This document shows, in pieces, positions 43,227 through 55,930 of a DNA stretch of 64,000 bases (positions are counted from its first letter, which is position 1; each line of letters starts with the position of its first letter). The notes below the pieces were generated by a model that saw nothing but the letters and a program-made list of their open reading frames with translations, was not told where the DNA came from and did not search any database. A program made the position numbers and the translations under genes. This DNA comes from Bryum argenteum (lineage: Eukaryota; Streptophyta; Bryopsida; Bryales; Bryaceae). The DNA lies in the NCBI GenBank assembly GCA_037043015.1, contig CM073325.1:5086501-5150500 (forward strand), in the 5' to 3' direction.

Positions 43227-43243
43227 TTGTTATGGGACCTCTA
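43227..43243 (+). repeat. 17-bp word also present inverted at 52,123-52,139
   Basis: TTGTTATGGGACCTCTA here; its exact reverse complement at 52,123-52,139. Each lies upstream of a start codon in the same relative orientation (TSR1, about 220 bp; copy A gene, 21 bp). No target-site duplication flanks the pair. Could be chance or a shared promoter word. Confidence 0.5.
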
Positions 43244-45705: not shown

Positions 45706-46500
45706 TACATGTCGCGGTTTGACTTCATATGGGTGACGGAGGAAGTTCGCAGTTTTTTTGCCTTTGCTGCTGCAAGTCTGCTGAATCTCATTGAATGCAT
45801 GACTGCGTCTCCCTCAGCCATCTATATGCAGGCCTTCCACGACGCTCTACAAATGCATGATTTGAACATACTCACTCAATGTGACTATCAGGTGTGGATT
45901 CGGATCAATGACCCTTTTGGATTACAATGGATGGTTTTAGTGGGTCAGATCTACTTATTATACTGTTTGGCTTGAAATGAATGCATTAAATACTGCCGAC
46001 ATTTTGTGTCAGTGATGTTGCAATCGGGTGTTTATTTTTCTGATTTAGACTGCTCTTTGAATTTGGTATTTTGTGTCAATGTATCGACAGAGGCTGTTGT
46101 GCTGATATGCTTGGTGGAGATGCAGTAAGAAGCAGAAGATGCAAGGAACAGAAGCTGACCAAAGTATCGACGCTCTGAATGATGTAACGGCTGTGAGTTG
46201 AGTCAATCTGAGGGTACGTTGGAATATTAGCACAATGATCTCCTCCAGTGTGGACATGCAAGTATTAAGGGACACTGATATGCTGGAAAGTTTGTTAATT
46301 GACGATAATGTTTGACTTCATATGGATGCCTGGGATGTTTCGCAGTTTTCTTGCCTTCGCTGCTGCAAGTCTGCTGGATTCTCATTGAAAGCATGACTGG
46401 CCACTGAGAGAGATTGCGTCTCTCTCAGCCATCCATATGCTTTCATAGGCTTTCCACGACGCTTTAAAAATTCATGACTTGAACATACTCGCTGATGCCT
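45706..46500. repeat. Diverged direct duplication of about 170 bp
   Basis: 45,715-45,880 and 46,313-46,495 share TGACTTCATATGG, GCAGTTTT.TTGCCTT, GCTGCTGCAAGTCTGCTG, CTCAGCCATC.ATATGC and CTTCCACGACGCT. The later copy has small insertions. No gene recognised in either. Confidence 0.7.
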
Positions 46501-46983
46501 GACTCAGTCTCGAGACACTACCGACACCACTATCGTCAATGCAGAACTCTATCTCACCCGGGGTGTCTTTCTGTGGTTCTCATTAGCTTCACGTTTGGAT
46601 GTAAATCTTGCAGTGCTAGAGAGGGTGGTCAGAGACTTGACATACATTGGCTGCAGATTTGCATGCGGGACCGACTCCTGAATGTGTACCGACGTGTCAT
46701 AGATCATGAGATCATAAGTTTGACAATATTTGCACAAAGTCGTATGCTTTTTCACATTCTTCCAGTGTTTCTTGCTCGGAACTTTCTTCCTATACAGATA
46801 CCTAGAGAGAACCACAGTTACATCGAGCAGTGTGCTCACAACAACCGAGCTGATTCCTGAAACCAGCGATCCTGGGACTGTCCAGAACAGACCCTGCAGA
46901 CCCTGTCATGTTGAACAGACCCTGTCATGAACAGATCAGTACGTAAGTAACGTAACGTCATGTACTAGGTAACGCAAAAGAAG

Positions 46984-47010
46984 CCACTGGTTATGAAAAA
47001 TAACCAGTGG
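46984..47010 (-). other. Hairpin of Helitron-like 3' terminus
   Basis: CCACTGGTTAT-GAAAA-ATAACCAGTGG forms an 11-bp perfect stem with a 5-nt loop, 15 nt before CTAG on the minus strand. Confidence 0.8.
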
Positions 47011-47109
47011 GGCATCCTTCCGAGCCGTCGGATCTGTACATTTTCAGTCAATCATAAGTTGTGGACACAAGCTGCACATATAGACCATAACTAAGCATGA
47101 TCGTGGGTC

Positions 47110-48010
47110 CTTAAAAAGAGCACACTACGAAGACACTTACGTCCCAATGGTACTCTCGCACCCACGTGTAAGCAATTTCGTCTTCGTCGTCTTTCCAACT
47201 GGGTAGCAAAGAAACGAAAATCGGTGAGCCGATCATGTACAACAATGGAGTGCCATGAGCTGTTCACAGGTGATGATAAGCTTCGAAGGCAAGACCAAGA
47301 AATATCTTACCTCTTCTGGTTTCGGCACCATGTACCCGATAAATTTCTCGGGTTTCGAACCATCTGCATTAAACGTTGAGAAGGACTTCACAATTGCCTA
47401 CAGTGAGGGAAAACGAACACGAATAAGTGTCCGACAATGCTTAGGCAAATCAACTTAAGTATTATAACTGTGCGTGTCCCTTACAATAACAGCTCTCAGC
47501 TTTGCAAAGTATCAACGCAACAAAATGTAGCAAGTTGAAAGTGAATACCCGTGATTCAATCTCAAGGCGTGCTTCCATATCTAATTCGGTTAAACCAGGG
47601 GCGTCCGTCAGTGGATCTGCGTCGAACACCATGTGCACAAACTGGTCGCCCATCCTGTTGCCCATATTTAACGAATTAGTTTCATAACGTGCACATGCAG
47701 TGCTCTGAAGAATCTAAAGTACAGTTGAGTAGTCGCACTGGTCAGAGATTGCATAAATAAAGGTCACGAAGGAAGATACTAAGAGAATTAAGAAGATGAC
47801 TCTCATCTTATCTTCCGGCACACGGAAACACGAAAGAGTGGAGGGACGTAATGTACCTGTCGAAATCAGGAAGTAACGGCCAAACTTCGACTGGATGAAG
47901 TTCGGGCTTGGTGAGATGTACAGGCCGCACTTTTGCTGCCCTAAAGGACTCCTCAATCGCTTCAATCTGTTGATCCCTGCGACATAGCAAAAGCAAGAAC
48001 ATCCTCAGCA
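47110..48010 (-). pseudogene. PAF1 (ELF7/VIP2) gene segment, internal exons only
   Basis: PAF1 is a core subunit of the RNA polymerase II PAF1 complex. Four internal exons remain: QQIEAIEESFRAAKVRPVHL...VWPLLPDFDR (about 47,868-47,982), MGDQFVHMVFDADPL...LEIESR (about 47,550-47,667), AIVKSFSTFNADGSKPEKFI...VPKPEE (about 47,312-47,400) and WKDDEDEIAYTWVREYHWD (about 47,132-47,190). The order matches Arabidopsis ELF7. The N-terminal and C-terminal parts of the protein are absent on either side. The last two exons are out of phase at the obvious splice sites. The segment stops 145 bases before the Helitron-like hairpin. I call it a captured, non-functional fragment. Confidence 0.7.
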
Positions 48011-48176
48011 AACCCAATTAGAAGAGCGAAAAGCACCACCAGCATAGAAATTGAGGCAGGCCGCAAACCGAGGCTCGGCTGCATCATTTGAACTACTCAA
48101 GAATTGCATCCTTAGCCTATTCGCTCCAGTCTGAAATATACGAAAGATGCTCTACCAGGAAAATTAGAAAGCCATA

Positions 48177-48563
48177 CCTATCATTAGCTGTCTCATTAGC
48201 TGTGCCTCTGCCAACGGGTAGCTGATTGCAAAGCCCCCGCCGCCGTAAGCCATGCTGTGACTGAAGTGATCATTTTGTCTGTGACTCTCTGAGTTGCTCC
48301 CGATGTACCACATCTCCGACGGGTCGTACTTGCCCAACACCCGCACCAGATTCTCCGTGTTGAACAGAGTATCATCGTCTCCAATCACGAACCACCGCAC
48401 GTTCGGCAGCCCCAACCGAAACGTCTCGCACACGATCCGCGACAACCGAATTCCCGACGGATGCCCCAGCGGGTGAGTGTACGAAAATGTGCTCGTGTCC
48501 TCCGACACGTGCACGGGCGGCACATTCTCGCCGTCAAACATGTGGATAATGAAGACAGGAATG
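48177..48563 (-). pseudogene. GT31 / DUF604 (fringe-like) glycosyltransferase segment
   Basis: One open segment reads VPPVHVSEDTSTFSYTHPLG, IRLSRIVCETFRLGLPNV, RWFVIGDDDTLFNTENLVRV, MWYIGSNSESHRQNDHFSHS and MAYGGGGFAISYPLAEAQ. The GDDDT segment is the family's DxD metal- and nucleotide-sugar-binding motif, and YGGGGFAISYPLA is its usual companion. The transmembrane anchor and the C-terminal third normally present in these Golgi enzymes are missing. Upstream it joins directly to the last exon of the METTL21-like gene, which reads it in another frame; downstream it ends at a usable donor (GATAG|GTATGG). Best explained as a captured internal piece. Confidence 0.75.
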
Positions 48564-50421
48564 AAGCGCACCGCATGGTGTAAAGGTCGATGTTGCTGTG
48601 CTGGTACTTCGCATCCATCTGCAATGATTTGATGAAGTTAATAATATGTCGGAAGGCTCTCGCAGCCATTAAAATATCAAAGTTACAATTATGGCGGATT
48701 TATCACTCTGCGATGATTAGGATTGTCTACACGAAGCAAATGTCAAGCCGCGTAGCTCCATAAGTGAATCTGCACAGAAGGCTGAAGTCCTAAGCATTCA
48801 TATGATATACGGTCTGATTTCGAGTACTAATGTCTCACCTTTGAATGAGCTATCTTCTTGACGGTGAAATGGCGTGAAAACGACTCTAGAAGTATTTCCT
48901 CCACTCCCTTTGCCCGAAACTCATAACCCAACTGTCAATTCCACTTCAAAGTTACGTTGCGCAATGACAGAATTTTTTTTGGTTCAAAGACTGAAACGAG
49001 TGAAAGCCAGGTGCGCACCATTAGGGTCGTCTTTGGACCTGAAAGAGCTATAACTGACTCAAGGAGAGGTTGCACCAAATGCTCCTTATACACCTTCAAA
49101 ATCACACAAGACCGTCATTCTCAGCTTAAGTACTCCCACGCGTGGATTTGGAACAAATGAATGACACATGAAAGAAAACGTACCACATCCGTGCCAATAA
49201 TGTAGTCAAACGGAGGGTTTAAGGCCTCAGCTTGTTGCTGGTTACCCCAGTCGAGTTCAGCGACCTCCACTGATCCAATAGGTCCTGCACATACATCAAT
49301 AACAGCATACAAATGATGTCAAAAGCAACTCTCTCAAGAAACCAAAAAAGTTAGAGTCGCATAGAACATGCCAGATTTTCACGGAATGTGGAGTGGTTAG
49401 AGAAGGAAGGAATTACCTAAATGTGAGTATTCTGAGGCAGAGTATTTGACCCGAGTCATAATCCTTTCCATGTTTCTTCGCAGCAGTGACAAAACCTCAG
49501 CCTGATCGGTTACCACCACCTCACACCCCAATATCGCCATACCTACAACACATAATCCATCAGTATCTCTGATCCTTTAACCCCATCAATCAGAAGTACT
49601 TAAAGGAGAGGAAGAGAAACTGACCTAGTCCTGATAATCCGCAGCCTGCTCCAACCTCTACAACACGCTTATGATGTAGCTTGGCCCTGCTGAACTCGCC
49701 CTCCTTGCTGTTCTTCTCCTGCACTACCGCCCGACTTCAAATAAGTCAGGAAGAGCAGCAGTGACGATTCATATTCTGATATTGCACGGTGATGAAAATC
49801 TTACCAGATACTTGACGAACACAACCGCGGAGTCCCATACTGTGGTTCCATGATGCTGAGAGTTAGGATCCTGCACTAGCAACCACCACAATTAGCAAAA
49901 ACTGGTTAAGACCAAGACCATCTATCTTGGCTGTTGGATGATCTTGCTAATGTTTATCTTCAAAAGAACGACGCCCTGTAAACATTGATATCATTCACTT
50001 TACGATTTCAAAATTACTCCATAACTCAGGTTCCACAACCTAGAAACCGCAACTGAGCGTGAATGAATCTGAATATATTATGTTATCTTGGTTTCCTCAA
50101 TCAAAGTGATACAACGTTTCTGTCTCGATCTTTCTGGTGTACCGAATTGGCGGGCCAAGGGTAACGAACTTACAGTCTTAATGTGTCAGTAGTGATGTAC
50201 GCTGTGTGTTTCAGCAAGCAATTCAGGGTTTAGGGTTTAAGCAAGTAAAGCAGGAACTTGTAAACCCTAAACTACGTATTAGTATCCCCTGGTTATAACA
50301 AATGGTGTGGAATGGAAATGATGGAACAGACCTGGGCAAGAAGGAGCTTGTGGCCGAGGACATCCTCACGGCGCCATCCTCGTCGTCCTTGTCGAGCAGA
50401 TCCTCCACTCGCGTCGACCAT
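48385..50421 (-). CDS. METTL21-like lysine methyltransferase with a foreign C-terminal tail (chimeric ORF)
   Basis: Eight exons join in frame to 292 aa: 50332-50421, 49805-49870, 49625-49718, 49417-49542, 49184-49284, 49019-49093, 48839-48931 and 48385-48618. The enzyme family methylates lysines on chaperones and elongation factors using S-adenosylmethionine. Visible motifs are QDPNSQHHGTTVWDSAVVFV, the SAM-binding VVEVGAGCGLSGLG, VVVTDQ, and the catalytic DxxY in IIGTDVVYKEHLVQPLL. LGYEFRAKGVEE and KMDAKYQHSNIDLYTM match the usual end of the fold. From there the last about 62 residues are read out of frame through the GT31 segment (RCASFLSSLSTCL...), so the natural terminus has been replaced. 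An upstream ATG at 50,492 opens a different frame over the same first exon and does not match the phase of exon 2. Confidence 0.7.
50225..50240. promoter_or_regulatory. Telo-box in intron 1 of the METTL21-like gene
   Basis: AGGGTTTAGGGTTTAA lies between exon 1 (ends 50,332) and exon 2 (starts 49,870). It may belong to the captured source promoter or be an intronic element. Confidence 0.35.
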
Positions 50422-50612
50422 CCTTCCAAGCTCACCTCAGCTGCTGGCGTGTTGAGCGTCGGCTCCTTGGATGCTTGGTTCTCCTCCGCCATAGCTTACG
50501 ACTCTTACAAAACCCAATTCGGAATTTAAGCTTGCCTTCGGAATCTACTGCTTCTACTGCTTCTGCTTCTGGCCTCTGGTTTGATCCACAGGTTCAGTAA
50601 CCCTAAACCATG

Positions 50613-52048
50613 CTATTCAGAACGAGGGAGTGATATTTGTTCCTCAACCTTAACATCCTGAGCGTCAACAATCTGCACTGCCTTGGTCCACTGCCTGGAA
50701 GCTATGGCGGATTCTATGGCTCGGCTGATGCACCCAGCTTCAAGAAAGTGATTGATAGCTGTATCAACCTGAAGACAATCGGGAAACAGGTGTGGTGAGA
50801 ATCTCAATTATGCCACATTTGACTACTTTCTGGACTTCGATTTCATCAATATATATGCCTTTTAGTACAGAATGTAAATTGTTCGCAATTACAATCTCAT
50901 AATGTACAACTACTTGAAACCCTAATGTATCAATGTTCAAGAATGTGCACATCTATCAATGCTCGTTCAGATTTAGGTGTAGTGTTTGAGAGGGGGGGCA
51001 CAGGGACCTGATGTTGGGAGATCAACCAATCGCCCCACTCTTCTTCGAGAGCAGCCACCTCGCCGGGAAAAACTCGACGGGTGAGGTCGATGGCTCTCCG
51101 ATAAGCATGGCCCCTCTTATAAGCCTCCTTAGCGCGTTCATATTTCCCCGACCTCTCGAGAAAATCGCCTGCCTGGTACACGGTACACAGAATCGGTCAT
51201 CCAACATCAATCGATCGGGAGCAATCGGTGCGATGGGGCTTACTTTCTCAAACATGTTGAATCGTAAGAGAGCACTTGCAACGGTCTCCATGGTGTTGTC
51301 CTGCATGCACTGCATATATACTGGTCAGTGAGTTCTCTGGAATCAAGATCTTGCGTTTTAGCACTTAAGCTTACTGCGAATGGATGCGAGGGATGGATGT
51401 TGACGCAATCGGCAGCATATCCGGGGTATCCACCTTTCAGGAACAACTTGATAGCACCAGCGACATCACCTTCCGCTTCCAGAATTTTCCCAGCCTCCTC
51501 CTCCTGAAGTGAAACCCTAAACCTTATCACATGATCGATCCTATCGCAAGAGATTACAATGTAAGAATCCTTGCCTGACCAGTTTCCGCAAGCCATTCAA
51601 AGTGCCTTCGTTTCAAATTCTTCGCTTCTGGGTGGTTCTGCAATTCTGCAACATTGACAGCCTCCTTGTATCTGCAACACACAACACAATCCATGCCTTT
51701 TAGCATAAGATTCCACGGGAAATGCCACTTCTGTAACATATTACCGCCAATTTATATGTCAGTGTACCAATTTAGGTACCATTTTCACCAATTGGCACAC
51801 GCAATATCACCGATTTAATAAAAGTGGCTTCTGTACCTCACCTGTGGCATTCTGTGTACATTTGAATTGCCGCGTCCACTCGCCCGTGCTCCAATAGAAG
51901 CGTTTCTGCTATCTGTATGATCAATACTAACAATTCTTACTGGTCCGGAAAGAAAGGGAGGTTCGGTAAGGGGCGGTACATCAGGATGCGCACGACAGAG
52001 GTCTATCATCTTGTTGATGGTTTCACCCAGTCCGGGCTTGGCCGCCAT
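50613..52048 (-). CDS. Chimeric ORF: novel N-terminal exon fused to an IFT172 segment
   Basis: Seven exons give one uninterrupted 260-aa frame: 51941-52048, 51842-51912, 51575-51671, 51375-51503, 51244-51300, 51008-51172 and 50613-50768. Exon 1 (MAAKPGLGETINKMIDLCRA...PPLTEPPFLSGP) is not IFT172 and I do not recognise it. Exons 2-7 match the TPR-like region of intraflagellar transport protein 172: LLLEHGRVDAAIQMYTECHR, AVNVAELQNHPEAKN, AGDFLERSGKYERAKEAYK, LEEEWGDWLISQHQ and INHFLEAGCISRAIESAI. It ends in VDAQD followed by nine foreign residues. IFT172 is normally about 1,700 aa, so this is a small part. The intron after exon 3 uses a GC donor (CAG|GCAAGG). The start is 112 bp from the divergent ATG at 52,160. 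Confidence 0.68.
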
Positions 52049-52159
52049 GGCGCCCTTCCTTCGTCCCCACGTTCCCAGCGAGCCGCGCCTGTGTTCCCGA
52101 CATTGGGAGCGTAGTAGTGTTCTAGAGGTCCCATAACAAGAATTTGGAGAGCACAGGAG

Positions 52160-53601
52160 ATGAAAGCACAGGAGATGTTGACAAAACAGGAGATGAGCAA
52201 GTATGTCGACGAGCTATTGTTAGAAGCTACAAAGCTTTTTTCACAGCAAGCTCCTGCGAAGGTACCATTTTCTCCGCCACCTGAAGACAATGTATCTTAC
52301 TTGAAGAAGGATATTAGGATACTCTGTGAAAGATGCTCTGTGAATATAAACTAATACGATATTAAGTAAAATAACTTGATAATAAAAAATCGAATCTCCA
52401 CAGCCAATTTCAGTATGTGGCGTACATGGAATTTTTATGAGTCTCACTAATATTATCTTCTTAAATGAACAGATTGAAGCTGGATTGAAAACAACATCAC
52501 TTGGAATTCAAGCACCTGTTATTGAAGGTAAACTACTTACATTGTGCATGTTTTATCACCAAATATAGAAATCTATTGCAGAAAATCTAATTCGACGTAT
52601 GAAGCCTGATTAAGTTTACATTTGATAATGGTGGCCCGGGTTGTGCACTGTTCTTACAGATATTCATCCTTCAGATCTCATTTGTTGCTTCAACAAGGAA
52701 GCGAAACATTTTGAGTTTTATTTCAAGAATCCTAAAACCATGGCAAGCATAATTGGAGTGGGAGTGGAATATGCAAAGGTTATAATCTTAGAGCATGGAA
52801 TGAAAGTGAGAGCTATCGAAATCCCAAAGGAAGATTGGGAGTCTATGTGGAAGAATGATGAAGGCCTTACCCCACAGACACAGGAGAACGAACTTGAATC
52901 ACAAAAAATGCTTTCAGCTGATGGGAAAGCATGGAGACCATTACTTTGGTATATTACAAAGTATTACAAACCGAAACTGGAGACAATGATGTCTTCTTCG
53001 AAAGACACTCAAAATGACAATAAAAACTTTGAGAGTCAGACATTTGGATCCGATGGTTGTAGCTCCGAAGGCAAGGACAATTATGCTAGCAATGATAGTG
53101 AGGTTCGGGATGGAGCAGAGGCAGGGGGTGGTGGTGGCAGCAATGGTGGACAGGATAGGGGAGCAGGAGCTGGTGGCATTGGCAGCAACAATAGAGAGGA
53201 TGGAAAAGGCGGTGGTGATAGTGGTAGCAATGGTGGACCGGACAGAGGAGGAGAAGGTGGAAGTGGCAGCAATGGTGGACATGATAGAGGAGCAGGCGGT
53301 GGTGGTGGTGGCGGCGGCGGCGGTAGCAGCAGTAGTGAGGGTGGACGTACATAGGCCATAGTGGATCTTGTTTTGCTACCGGGAGGATTGTTATATGCTT
53401 CGGGGTCGGGAGATCCTGTTGATGCTACCGGATTCCCATTAGGTGAGAAGCTGTCCAGTACAGTCTGTCCAACCTTGAAGTTTACCTTTATAAAGGATGG
53501 ATCAAACAGAACACAGCGTACGGGAATCGAATTCATTGTTGAAACAAGGTTTGAATTTCCTAGTGAGAACAACAAGAATTACAAGGACATAGGACGCTTG
53601 G
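52160..53601 (+). CDS. Unrecognised tandem-array gene, founder copy, 5' exons (copy A)
   Basis: Exons 52160-52261, 52473-52527 and 52660-53601 join in frame. The protein begins MKAQEMLTKQEMSKYVDELL, then SLGIQAPVIEDIHPSDLICC, ASIIGVGVEYAKVIILEHGM and KVRAIEIPKEDWESMW. A low-complexity glycine-rich stretch follows (53,120-53,345; GGGGSNGGQDRG and variants) and then IVDLVLLPGGLLYASGSGDP. I do not recognise the family; it has no obvious signal peptide or catalytic motif. At 53,352-53,354 a TAG interrupts the frame where copy C has GAG, so as it stands translation would stop after the Gly-rich part (247 aa). Beyond TAG the frame stays open to a donor at 53,601, and the missing 3' half resumes at 59,729. 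It is the only copy with the first two exons. Confidence 0.5.
53120..53345 (+). repeat. Glycine-rich coding minisatellite
   Basis: Variable units based on GGTGGCAGCAATGGTGGACA, encoding GGSNGG(Q/P/H)DRG. Unit number and order differ among the three copies (also about 61,160-61,490 and 63,195-63,530). The reverse strand reads as a long proline-rich frame, which is a shadow. Confidence 0.85.
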
Positions 53602-55572: not shown

Positions 55573-55681
55573 GTGGACCCGAGAAAATCCGACGTGGCAC
55601 TCGGGAAAATCTGACGTGGCACCCGGGAAAATCCGACGTGGCACCCGGGAATATCCGACGTGGCACGCGGGAAAAGTTGAC
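55573..55681. repeat. 22-bp tandem repeat inside the CACTA element
   Basis: Five imperfect units, consensus GTGGCACCCGGGAAAATCCG plus AC; the first is 21 bp. Flanked by further GTGGCA/CCACGT-type words. Confidence 0.85.
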
Positions 55682-55739
55682 ATGGACTTGGAAAAATGAC
55701 ATGGCATGCCACGTCAGCATATTGCGAAGGTTTTATGCT

Positions 55740-55930
55740 CCTATCATGATAGTTTTAGACATCAGTTAAGACGACTTAAATGTCTTGCAAGACATCTTAG
55801 ATGTTGTACAAGATGTCTTGCAAGACATCTTAGATGTTGTACAAGATGTCTTGCAAGACGTATGCAATGTCTTACAAAATATCTTAGAAGACAATTTTTA
55901 TGTCTTATAAGATGTTTCCAGTGCGTAGAA
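55740..55930. repeat. Cluster of AGACATC/GATGTCT subterminal motifs
   Basis: GTCTTGCAAGACATCTTAGA and ATGTTGTACAAGATGTCTTG alternate, making imperfect palindromes, two near-identical units about 40 bp apart. Similar but sparser motifs occur at 57,260-57,370 and 58,700-58,880. Confidence 0.8.

Follow-up and report, generated by a model that had tools for sequence, protein, structure and literature searches.

A patchwork of gene pieces and other transposons between the ends of two rolling-circle families in the moss Bryum argenteum

How do pieces of several unrelated genes come to lie side by side, introns included, between the ends of transposons? A 64-kb stretch of the 258.8-Mb Bryum argenteum genome, referred to here as the window (C5:5086501-5150500; C and L numbers denote chromosomes and loci), raises this question: on its minus strand, from position 52136 down to 46965, intron-bearing pieces of IFT172, a METTL21-like gene, a GT31/DUF604 gene and PAF1 follow one another in one shared direction. 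The first-pass annotation had read the locus as one Helitron-like element beginning with TC and lying in an A|T insertion site, an arrangement held to fit rolling-circle transduplication. Canonical Helitron1 elements of maize carry intron-bearing fragments of several genes between a TC 5′ end and a 3′ hairpin with CTAG|T; the window element resembles them in its intron-bearing pieces of several genes and its 3′ hairpin with CTAG|T, but has no TC 5′ end and received two of its genes by way of another element.

Composition of the patchwork and its donors

Comparison of this stretch with the rest of the genome at the DNA level divides it into six patches (P1 to P6, all on the minus strand), each with sharp borders and with a donor locus elsewhere. 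The first, P1 (52064-52136), is the 5′ end of a Helitron2-like family that we call family A (TTATGGGACCTCTAGAACAC...), of the subtype found at L030, L031 and L032 (89.6% identity to L031 over 77 bp). It is followed by P2 (51949-52062), a 114-bp fragment that occurs twice on C2 (96% to both C2:27393009 and C2:27443286) and from which the one peptide tried had no match in a Pfam search, and by P3 (50590-51950), internal exons and introns of IFT172 with their source at C3:5751472-5752984. P4 (48202-50592) is a 2.39-kb patch from the interior of an L009-type family-A element and consists of a first exon beginning MAEENQASKEP (50366-50592), a METTL21-like lysine methyltransferase gene with introns (48537-50364; source C5:13160489-13162348) and a GT31/DUF604 glycosyltransferase exon piece (48202-48535; source on C10, in two copies ~9 kb apart). 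Internal exons and introns of PAF1 make up P5 (47027-48195; source C4:19617467-19618644), and P6 (46965-47027) is the final 63 bp of a second family, B, comprising an 11-bp hairpin, 15 nt and CTAG, with T as the next base. The stretch is a patchwork between two rolling-circle ends, made of pieces of unrelated genes and of other transposons.

The identities of the four gene pieces come from exon peptides that we delimited and joined by eye from translations for the Pfam queries, which matched PAF1 (3.9e-20), Fringe and DUF604 for the GT31 piece (1.9e-12 and 6.3e-8) and Methyltransf_16 (9e-29; presumably a METTL21-like gene, as we name it), and from PDB chain 8bd7_S for IFT172 (2.6e-64). These matches, all on the minus strand, bear out the earlier description of four gene segments lying head to tail with introns kept; the string also holds the multi-copy exon at 50366-50592 and the C2 fragment at 51949-52062, which that description had left out.

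For each of the four genes there is a copy elsewhere that reaches beyond the captured part in one direction or both, on C3 for IFT172, C5 for the METTL21-like gene, C10 for GT31 and C4 for PAF1, and the outcome in which the segments are the only copies in the genome was not seen. The donors lie on different chromosomes. GT31, with its two C10 copies, is not single as had been supposed. In the IFT172 donor (L012; 94% DNA identity over 50590-51706 and 88% over 51698-51950) and the PAF1 donor (L011; 96%), coding continues past both captured edges in translations read by eye. The methyltransferase donor (L010; 95% and 85%) has the same exons and extends past the captured 3′ edge, and the GT31 donor (L017; 98%) reads by eye as containing an earlier part of the GT31 exon and later exons too. 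Further partial copies of PAF1 are present at L013 on C1 and L014 on C8, and 379-bp methyltransferase pieces at L015 on C6 and L016 on C3. Separately, the strand opposite that of the IFT172 source gene carries, ~13 kb away, a family-A element (C3:5765799-5780286).

Inspection of the captured PAF1 piece revealed an 11-bp deletion within an apparent exon, absent from both L011 and L013, that puts this exon out of frame. With exons as we delimited them, divergence from the sources is lower in exons than in introns for PAF1 (0.56% vs 3.11%), IFT172 (2.09% vs 3.83%) and METTL21 (2.55% vs 3.82%). Constraint acting on the source genes would by itself be enough to explain this difference, and we set aside selection on the captured exons; the PAF1 exon divergence looks lower than source constraint predicts, but rests on 2 changes.

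Two ends from two families

The 5′ end of the window element is TTATGGGACC, the end of family A, in place of the TC that had been expected. A genome search with the family-A 5′ end, in which every one of 35 candidates was scored, yields 35 matches, and the pattern of this end recurs in 25 copies at up to 3 mismatches over 31 bp, against 0 for the reversed-pattern control. Family-A siblings have TTATGGGACCTCTAGAACACTACTACGCTCC in common at this end, and agreement between most independent sibling pairs begins at -6 to +3 of TTATGGGACCTCTAGAACACTACTACGCTCC, a few pairs agreeing out to -9 or -12 via T-rich flanks. The terminus TTATGGG is usually preceded by TTN, with T at -3 in 25 of 26 loci and at -2 in 24 of 26. 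This count draws on 30 loci, no locus being available for 5 of the 35 places, less the duplicates L034, L035 and L049 and the degenerate L056; it includes both L047 and L058 despite their shared upstream flank. The Ts may belong to the target or to the element. At C4:11418634-11419638 (L040, L049), two family-A copies lie head to tail with zero bases between them, the 3′ end of one meeting the TTATGGG of the next at C4:11419607/11419608. Sibling agreement, this head-to-tail copy and the T positions together place the start of the window element at 52136, at most 52139, rather than at 52100 as first drawn.

The 3′ end of family A, GAGGTCCCACACGACTTG, was recognised at the point at which L028 diverges from related copies; it recurs in L040 just upstream of another copy's 5′ end and has 41 matches at up to 2 mismatches, against 3 for the control. 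Family A carries asymmetric terminal inverted repeats, 5′ TTATGGGACCTC and 3′ GAGGTCCCACACGACTTG, whose inverted parts are TGGGACCTC, set 3 nt in from the 5′ end, and GAGGTCCCA, set 9 nt in from the 3′ end. Among all 35 family-A 5′ ends, nested and tandem ones included, 22 have one of the 41 3′ ends on the same strand within 30 kb (22 pairs formed with 21 3′ ends, since two 5′ ends share one), whereas after randomisation of the 3′ ends an average of 0.09, and never more than 3 in 2000 trials, were paired. Within the copy at C1:30544336-30559815, a Rep match (PF14214, 8.4e-22) at 30553510 and a PIF1 match (PF05970, 7.5e-9, one internal stop) at 30555261 both lie on the plus strand; the copies at C4:4530477-4558517 and C4:19584655-19587626 have a Rep match inside, weak and broken in the latter, and no PIF1 match among those listed. 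Family A behaves like a rolling-circle family. Its asymmetric inverted ends, its T-rich 5′ flank and the presence of Rep and PIF1 in one copy resemble the Helitron2/Helentron type as outlined in PMC5148889 and PMC4067079. Folding predicts a clear 5′ hairpin in the sibling L033 (z -4.46) and none in the window copy (z 0.33). Judged on its ends and on that one copy, we class the family as Helitron2-like; the window copy departs from the type in having the A 5′ end only, its 3′ end coming from family B.

Thirteen of the family-A 5′ ends, the window's included, have no paired A 3′ end, and A's own 3′ end has 0 matches at up to 3 mismatches within the 64-kb window. An element ending further left at an A 3′ end was therefore set aside, and either a deletion or a hybrid has to be accepted. 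A second TTATGGGACCTC does occur at 43230-43241 (+), in the opposite orientation, ~220 bp before the start of a minus-strand gene that we take to be TSR1-like, with no family-A 3′ end after it within the window. A 12-bp inverted match links positions 43230 and 52136 (5 of 100 shuffles equalled the number of matches), and we rejected an element with terminal inverted repeats spanning this interval since family A has a different 3′ end and other repeats make up most of the left flank; likewise, the symmetric terminal inverted repeats that mark Pack-MULEs and other such elements contrast with the asymmetric ends of family A. On the other side of the element, at 55577-55911, tandem repeats of ~22 and ~33 bp sit inside a many-copy repeat.

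At the other edge, the hairpin, 15 nt and CTAG|T terminus reported at 46965 holds up: an 11-bp stem forms on folding, none of 200 shuffles folding equally well, and T is the next base. A genome search at the DNA level, with 40 out of 106 candidates scored, yields at least 57 matches to the terminus, and its pattern at up to 3 mismatches has 122 matches against 0 for the reversed-pattern control, both counts taking in the window and both palindrome halves; the named refuting outcome of a terminus with no other copies was not seen. The terminus belongs to family B. Five of its loci (L022-L026) agree over ~530-540 bp, from CATAACCGCAGTTC to CTAG, and in them the 5′ start recurs internally in inverted form, ahead of a 130-bp palindrome; T follows CTAG in each. 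The final 63 bp of the window element (P6, 95-97% identical to L022-L026) are family B cut at the centre of this palindrome. Of 89 family-B 5′ ends, 53 can be paired with a 3′ end on their own strand no more than 900 bp away, 34 of those at 511-558 bp (100 of the 122 B 3′ places used), and the L023 palindrome folds at -64.7 kcal/mol, as low as which none of 200 shuffles fell. At C11:3979075-3979139 and C8:15792016-15792080, B palindromes have 9 bp between two 28-bp terminal motifs that are elsewhere 72-75 bp apart, as if the centre had been lost. A Helitron2-like 5′ end and a 3′ end from another family leave a single ordinary Helitron at an A|T site unsupported; T follows the window element and G precedes it.

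Probable second-hand capture and assembly by repair

Window positions 50592-48202 align to L009 in a single match at 97.9% over 2392 columns. L009 sits in a family-A element (C1:17805809-17814665) that has its family 3′ end at C1:17814648, with 1 mismatch, and in which METTL21 (1.8 kb) and GT31 (1.6 kb) lie within an exon, flanked by direct repeats of ~90 bp (~93 bp on the left and ~73 bp on the right, where 20 bp are missing). The same exon is uninterrupted in L020, L047, L058 and L039, three of these four siblings being independent because L047 and L058 share an upstream flank. The exon itself, whose MAEENQASKEP peptide had no match in a Pfam search, follows a family-A 5′ end in L009, L020/L042, L039, L047 and L058, and in part in L048. 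L020 and, by DNA match, L009 and the elements of L058 (C1:33244254) and L047 (C1:36963184) hold a further gene, which we take to be GT14-type glycosyltransferase-like.

L009 and the window have both internal junctions of this segment in common. METTL21 and GT31 probably reached the window second-hand, through another element and not from the genes themselves. Passage from an L009-type element to the window, rather than the reverse, would be the simpler history, as the GT31 piece is longer in L009 and the second repeat survives there. Alignment of the filled L009 exon with its uninterrupted siblings points to the signature of filler-DNA break repair, a reading that qualifies the transduplication first proposed: both edges are indeed rolling-circle-type termini and the donors do lie elsewhere, but the L009 comparison favours break repair as the source of the interior. 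The L009 duplication could also stem from a tandem duplication followed by an insertion.

Stepwise capture by end bypass, in which rolling-circle transposition reads through its own terminator, would account for the sense orientation of all four captured genes, and the mechanism is stated as confirmed for another Helitron in PMC5148889. We consider it very unlikely here, given that the L009 genes are internal, set within an exon and flanked by direct repeats, in an element whose family 3′ end is in place at C1:17814648, and that the gene donors are spread over four chromosomes. Bypass onto a B end is further disfavoured since it would bring B's upstream sequence, and only the 63 bp up to the dyad are present.

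For the window element itself, the corresponding evidence lies in its junctions (the filled and uninterrupted exons being those of L009 and its siblings). Seven window junctions, aligned by eye with both donors and with no chance test, display ~0-4 bp of microhomology, and at the GT31/PAF1 join an 11-base stretch is present twice, as in templated end joining; polymerase theta templated insertions have reportedly been observed in Arabidopsis. The junctions and the relatives of the element suggest that break repair, rather than transposition itself, assembled the patchwork. From what is directly seen (the donor loci, the order of the patches, the segment shared with L009, its flanking duplication, the uninterrupted siblings and the junction sequences), we consider it likely that the locus is a non-autonomous mosaic element of rolling-circle type, with a family-A 5′ end, a family-B 3′ end and an interior derived from double-strand-break repair. 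On this model, a break in an L020-type element would have been filled with METTL21 and GT31, and the segment would then have spread among elements. A later assembly would have built the window copy from an L031-type 5′ end, the C2 piece, IFT172, the L009-type segment, PAF1 and half of a B palindrome, the repair machinery copying stretches from unlinked places (filler DNA or template switching) and joining them by polymerase-theta-like end joining or microhomology-mediated template switching. Breakage of B's palindrome at its tip would yield the 63-bp end; this step, like the role of break repair as joining agent, we infer from structure.

A genomic filler array unrelated to transposons, with the two transposon ends as just two further patches, would have parallels elsewhere in the genome, where L015 and L016 combine METTL21, an L020-like element and L019 pieces. 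Such an array is an improbable origin for the window element, both extremities of which fall at family termini in matching orientation; many siblings, moreover, have both A ends (22 of 35). L015 (C6) and L016 (C3) are themselves located near chromosome starts and share a 9.8-kb segment at 96%, within which a 379-bp methyltransferase piece is joined to L020 and L019 pieces; a Helitron Rep lies ~5 kb from this segment on each chromosome, and the 14-bp family-A 5′ end, looked for in L015, did not occur there.

Possible mobility of the hybrid ends and relation to known Helitrons

The last step of the history admits two accounts. It is quite possible that two resident elements fused, an A mosaic having lost its 3′ part and a neighbouring B copy its first ~475 bp through one deletion joined at 47027, in which case no hybrid would have moved; this account departs from the repair-built hybrid only at that step and leaves the interior a repair mosaic. 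The missing A 3′ end, the truncated B piece and the 1-2 bp of microhomology at the join all fit a fusion, as does the fact that, of 35 A 5′ ends, the window's alone has a B 3′ end less than 30 kb away (at 5,181 bp), among 100 of the 122 B places. Fusion nevertheless needs a B copy to have lain by chance beside A in the same orientation. Comparison of 46000-53500 with the loci gave no sign of a B body or other B remnant, and B's inner inverted repeat has 3 matches in the window, all with 3 mismatches (0.59 expected) and none beside the element.

Alternatively, Rep may have initiated at the 5′ end from A and terminated at the 3′ end from B, the 5.17 kb inserting whole before a T. Each edge is a family terminus and the two are oriented alike, the base after CTAG is T, just as at the five B loci read, and chimeric Helitrons of Fusarium are proposed (PMC5148889) to use another copy's 3′ end. 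We regard such mobility as rather doubtful: a second copy of the whole mosaic was not found, its pieces alone matching elsewhere (40 of 121 candidates scored in the genome search), the unlike 3′ ends of A and B require that a single Rep accept both, and the 5′ end is preceded by G instead of A. The flanks returned no other match that could represent an empty site, either for 46313-46964 (40 of 4663 candidates scored) or for 52141-53596 (40 of 562 candidates scored).

The kind of event that we favour, a mosaic built by break repair, is already known, in that Helitron gene capture and stepwise filler acquisition are in print (PMC6544945; for background on gene-capturing Helitrons, also PMC4683698). 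The insect element Sfru_Hel1A, as described in PMC6544945, acquired fillers of 35-108 bp stepwise, and the moss element is like it in its insertions nested in an element, its filler from two sources and the short homology at source edges; it is unlike it in its kilobase-sized gene pieces, its plant host, the ~90-bp direct repeats beside the insert and the mixing of two families. Chimeric FoHelis, attributed in PMC5148889 to self-insertion of one Helitron into another, share the notion of one element's 5′ end being used with another's 3′ end, but here a 63-bp half palindrome of another family is joined to a gene piece. Among titles and abstract openings of the Helitron, filler-DNA and moss literature, no such arrangement is described for a moss. 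What is particular here is the mixed ends, the second-hand segment and the pair of filled and uninterrupted exons.

How Helitrons pick up genes, whether by end bypass or through filler DNA, is still argued, and one moss family offers a filled copy with uninterrupted siblings at the same exon, a second-hand carrier and a donor for every patch. We further speculate, as an unlikely extension, that break repair can join the ends of different rolling-circle families. A 63-bp half palindrome would then act as a plug-in 3′ terminator, and repair mosaics with gene pieces inside would be mobile at once. If this were true, new Helitron families would arise by repair and not by drift or read-through; were hybrid ends mobile, break repair would be an additional source of transposon families.
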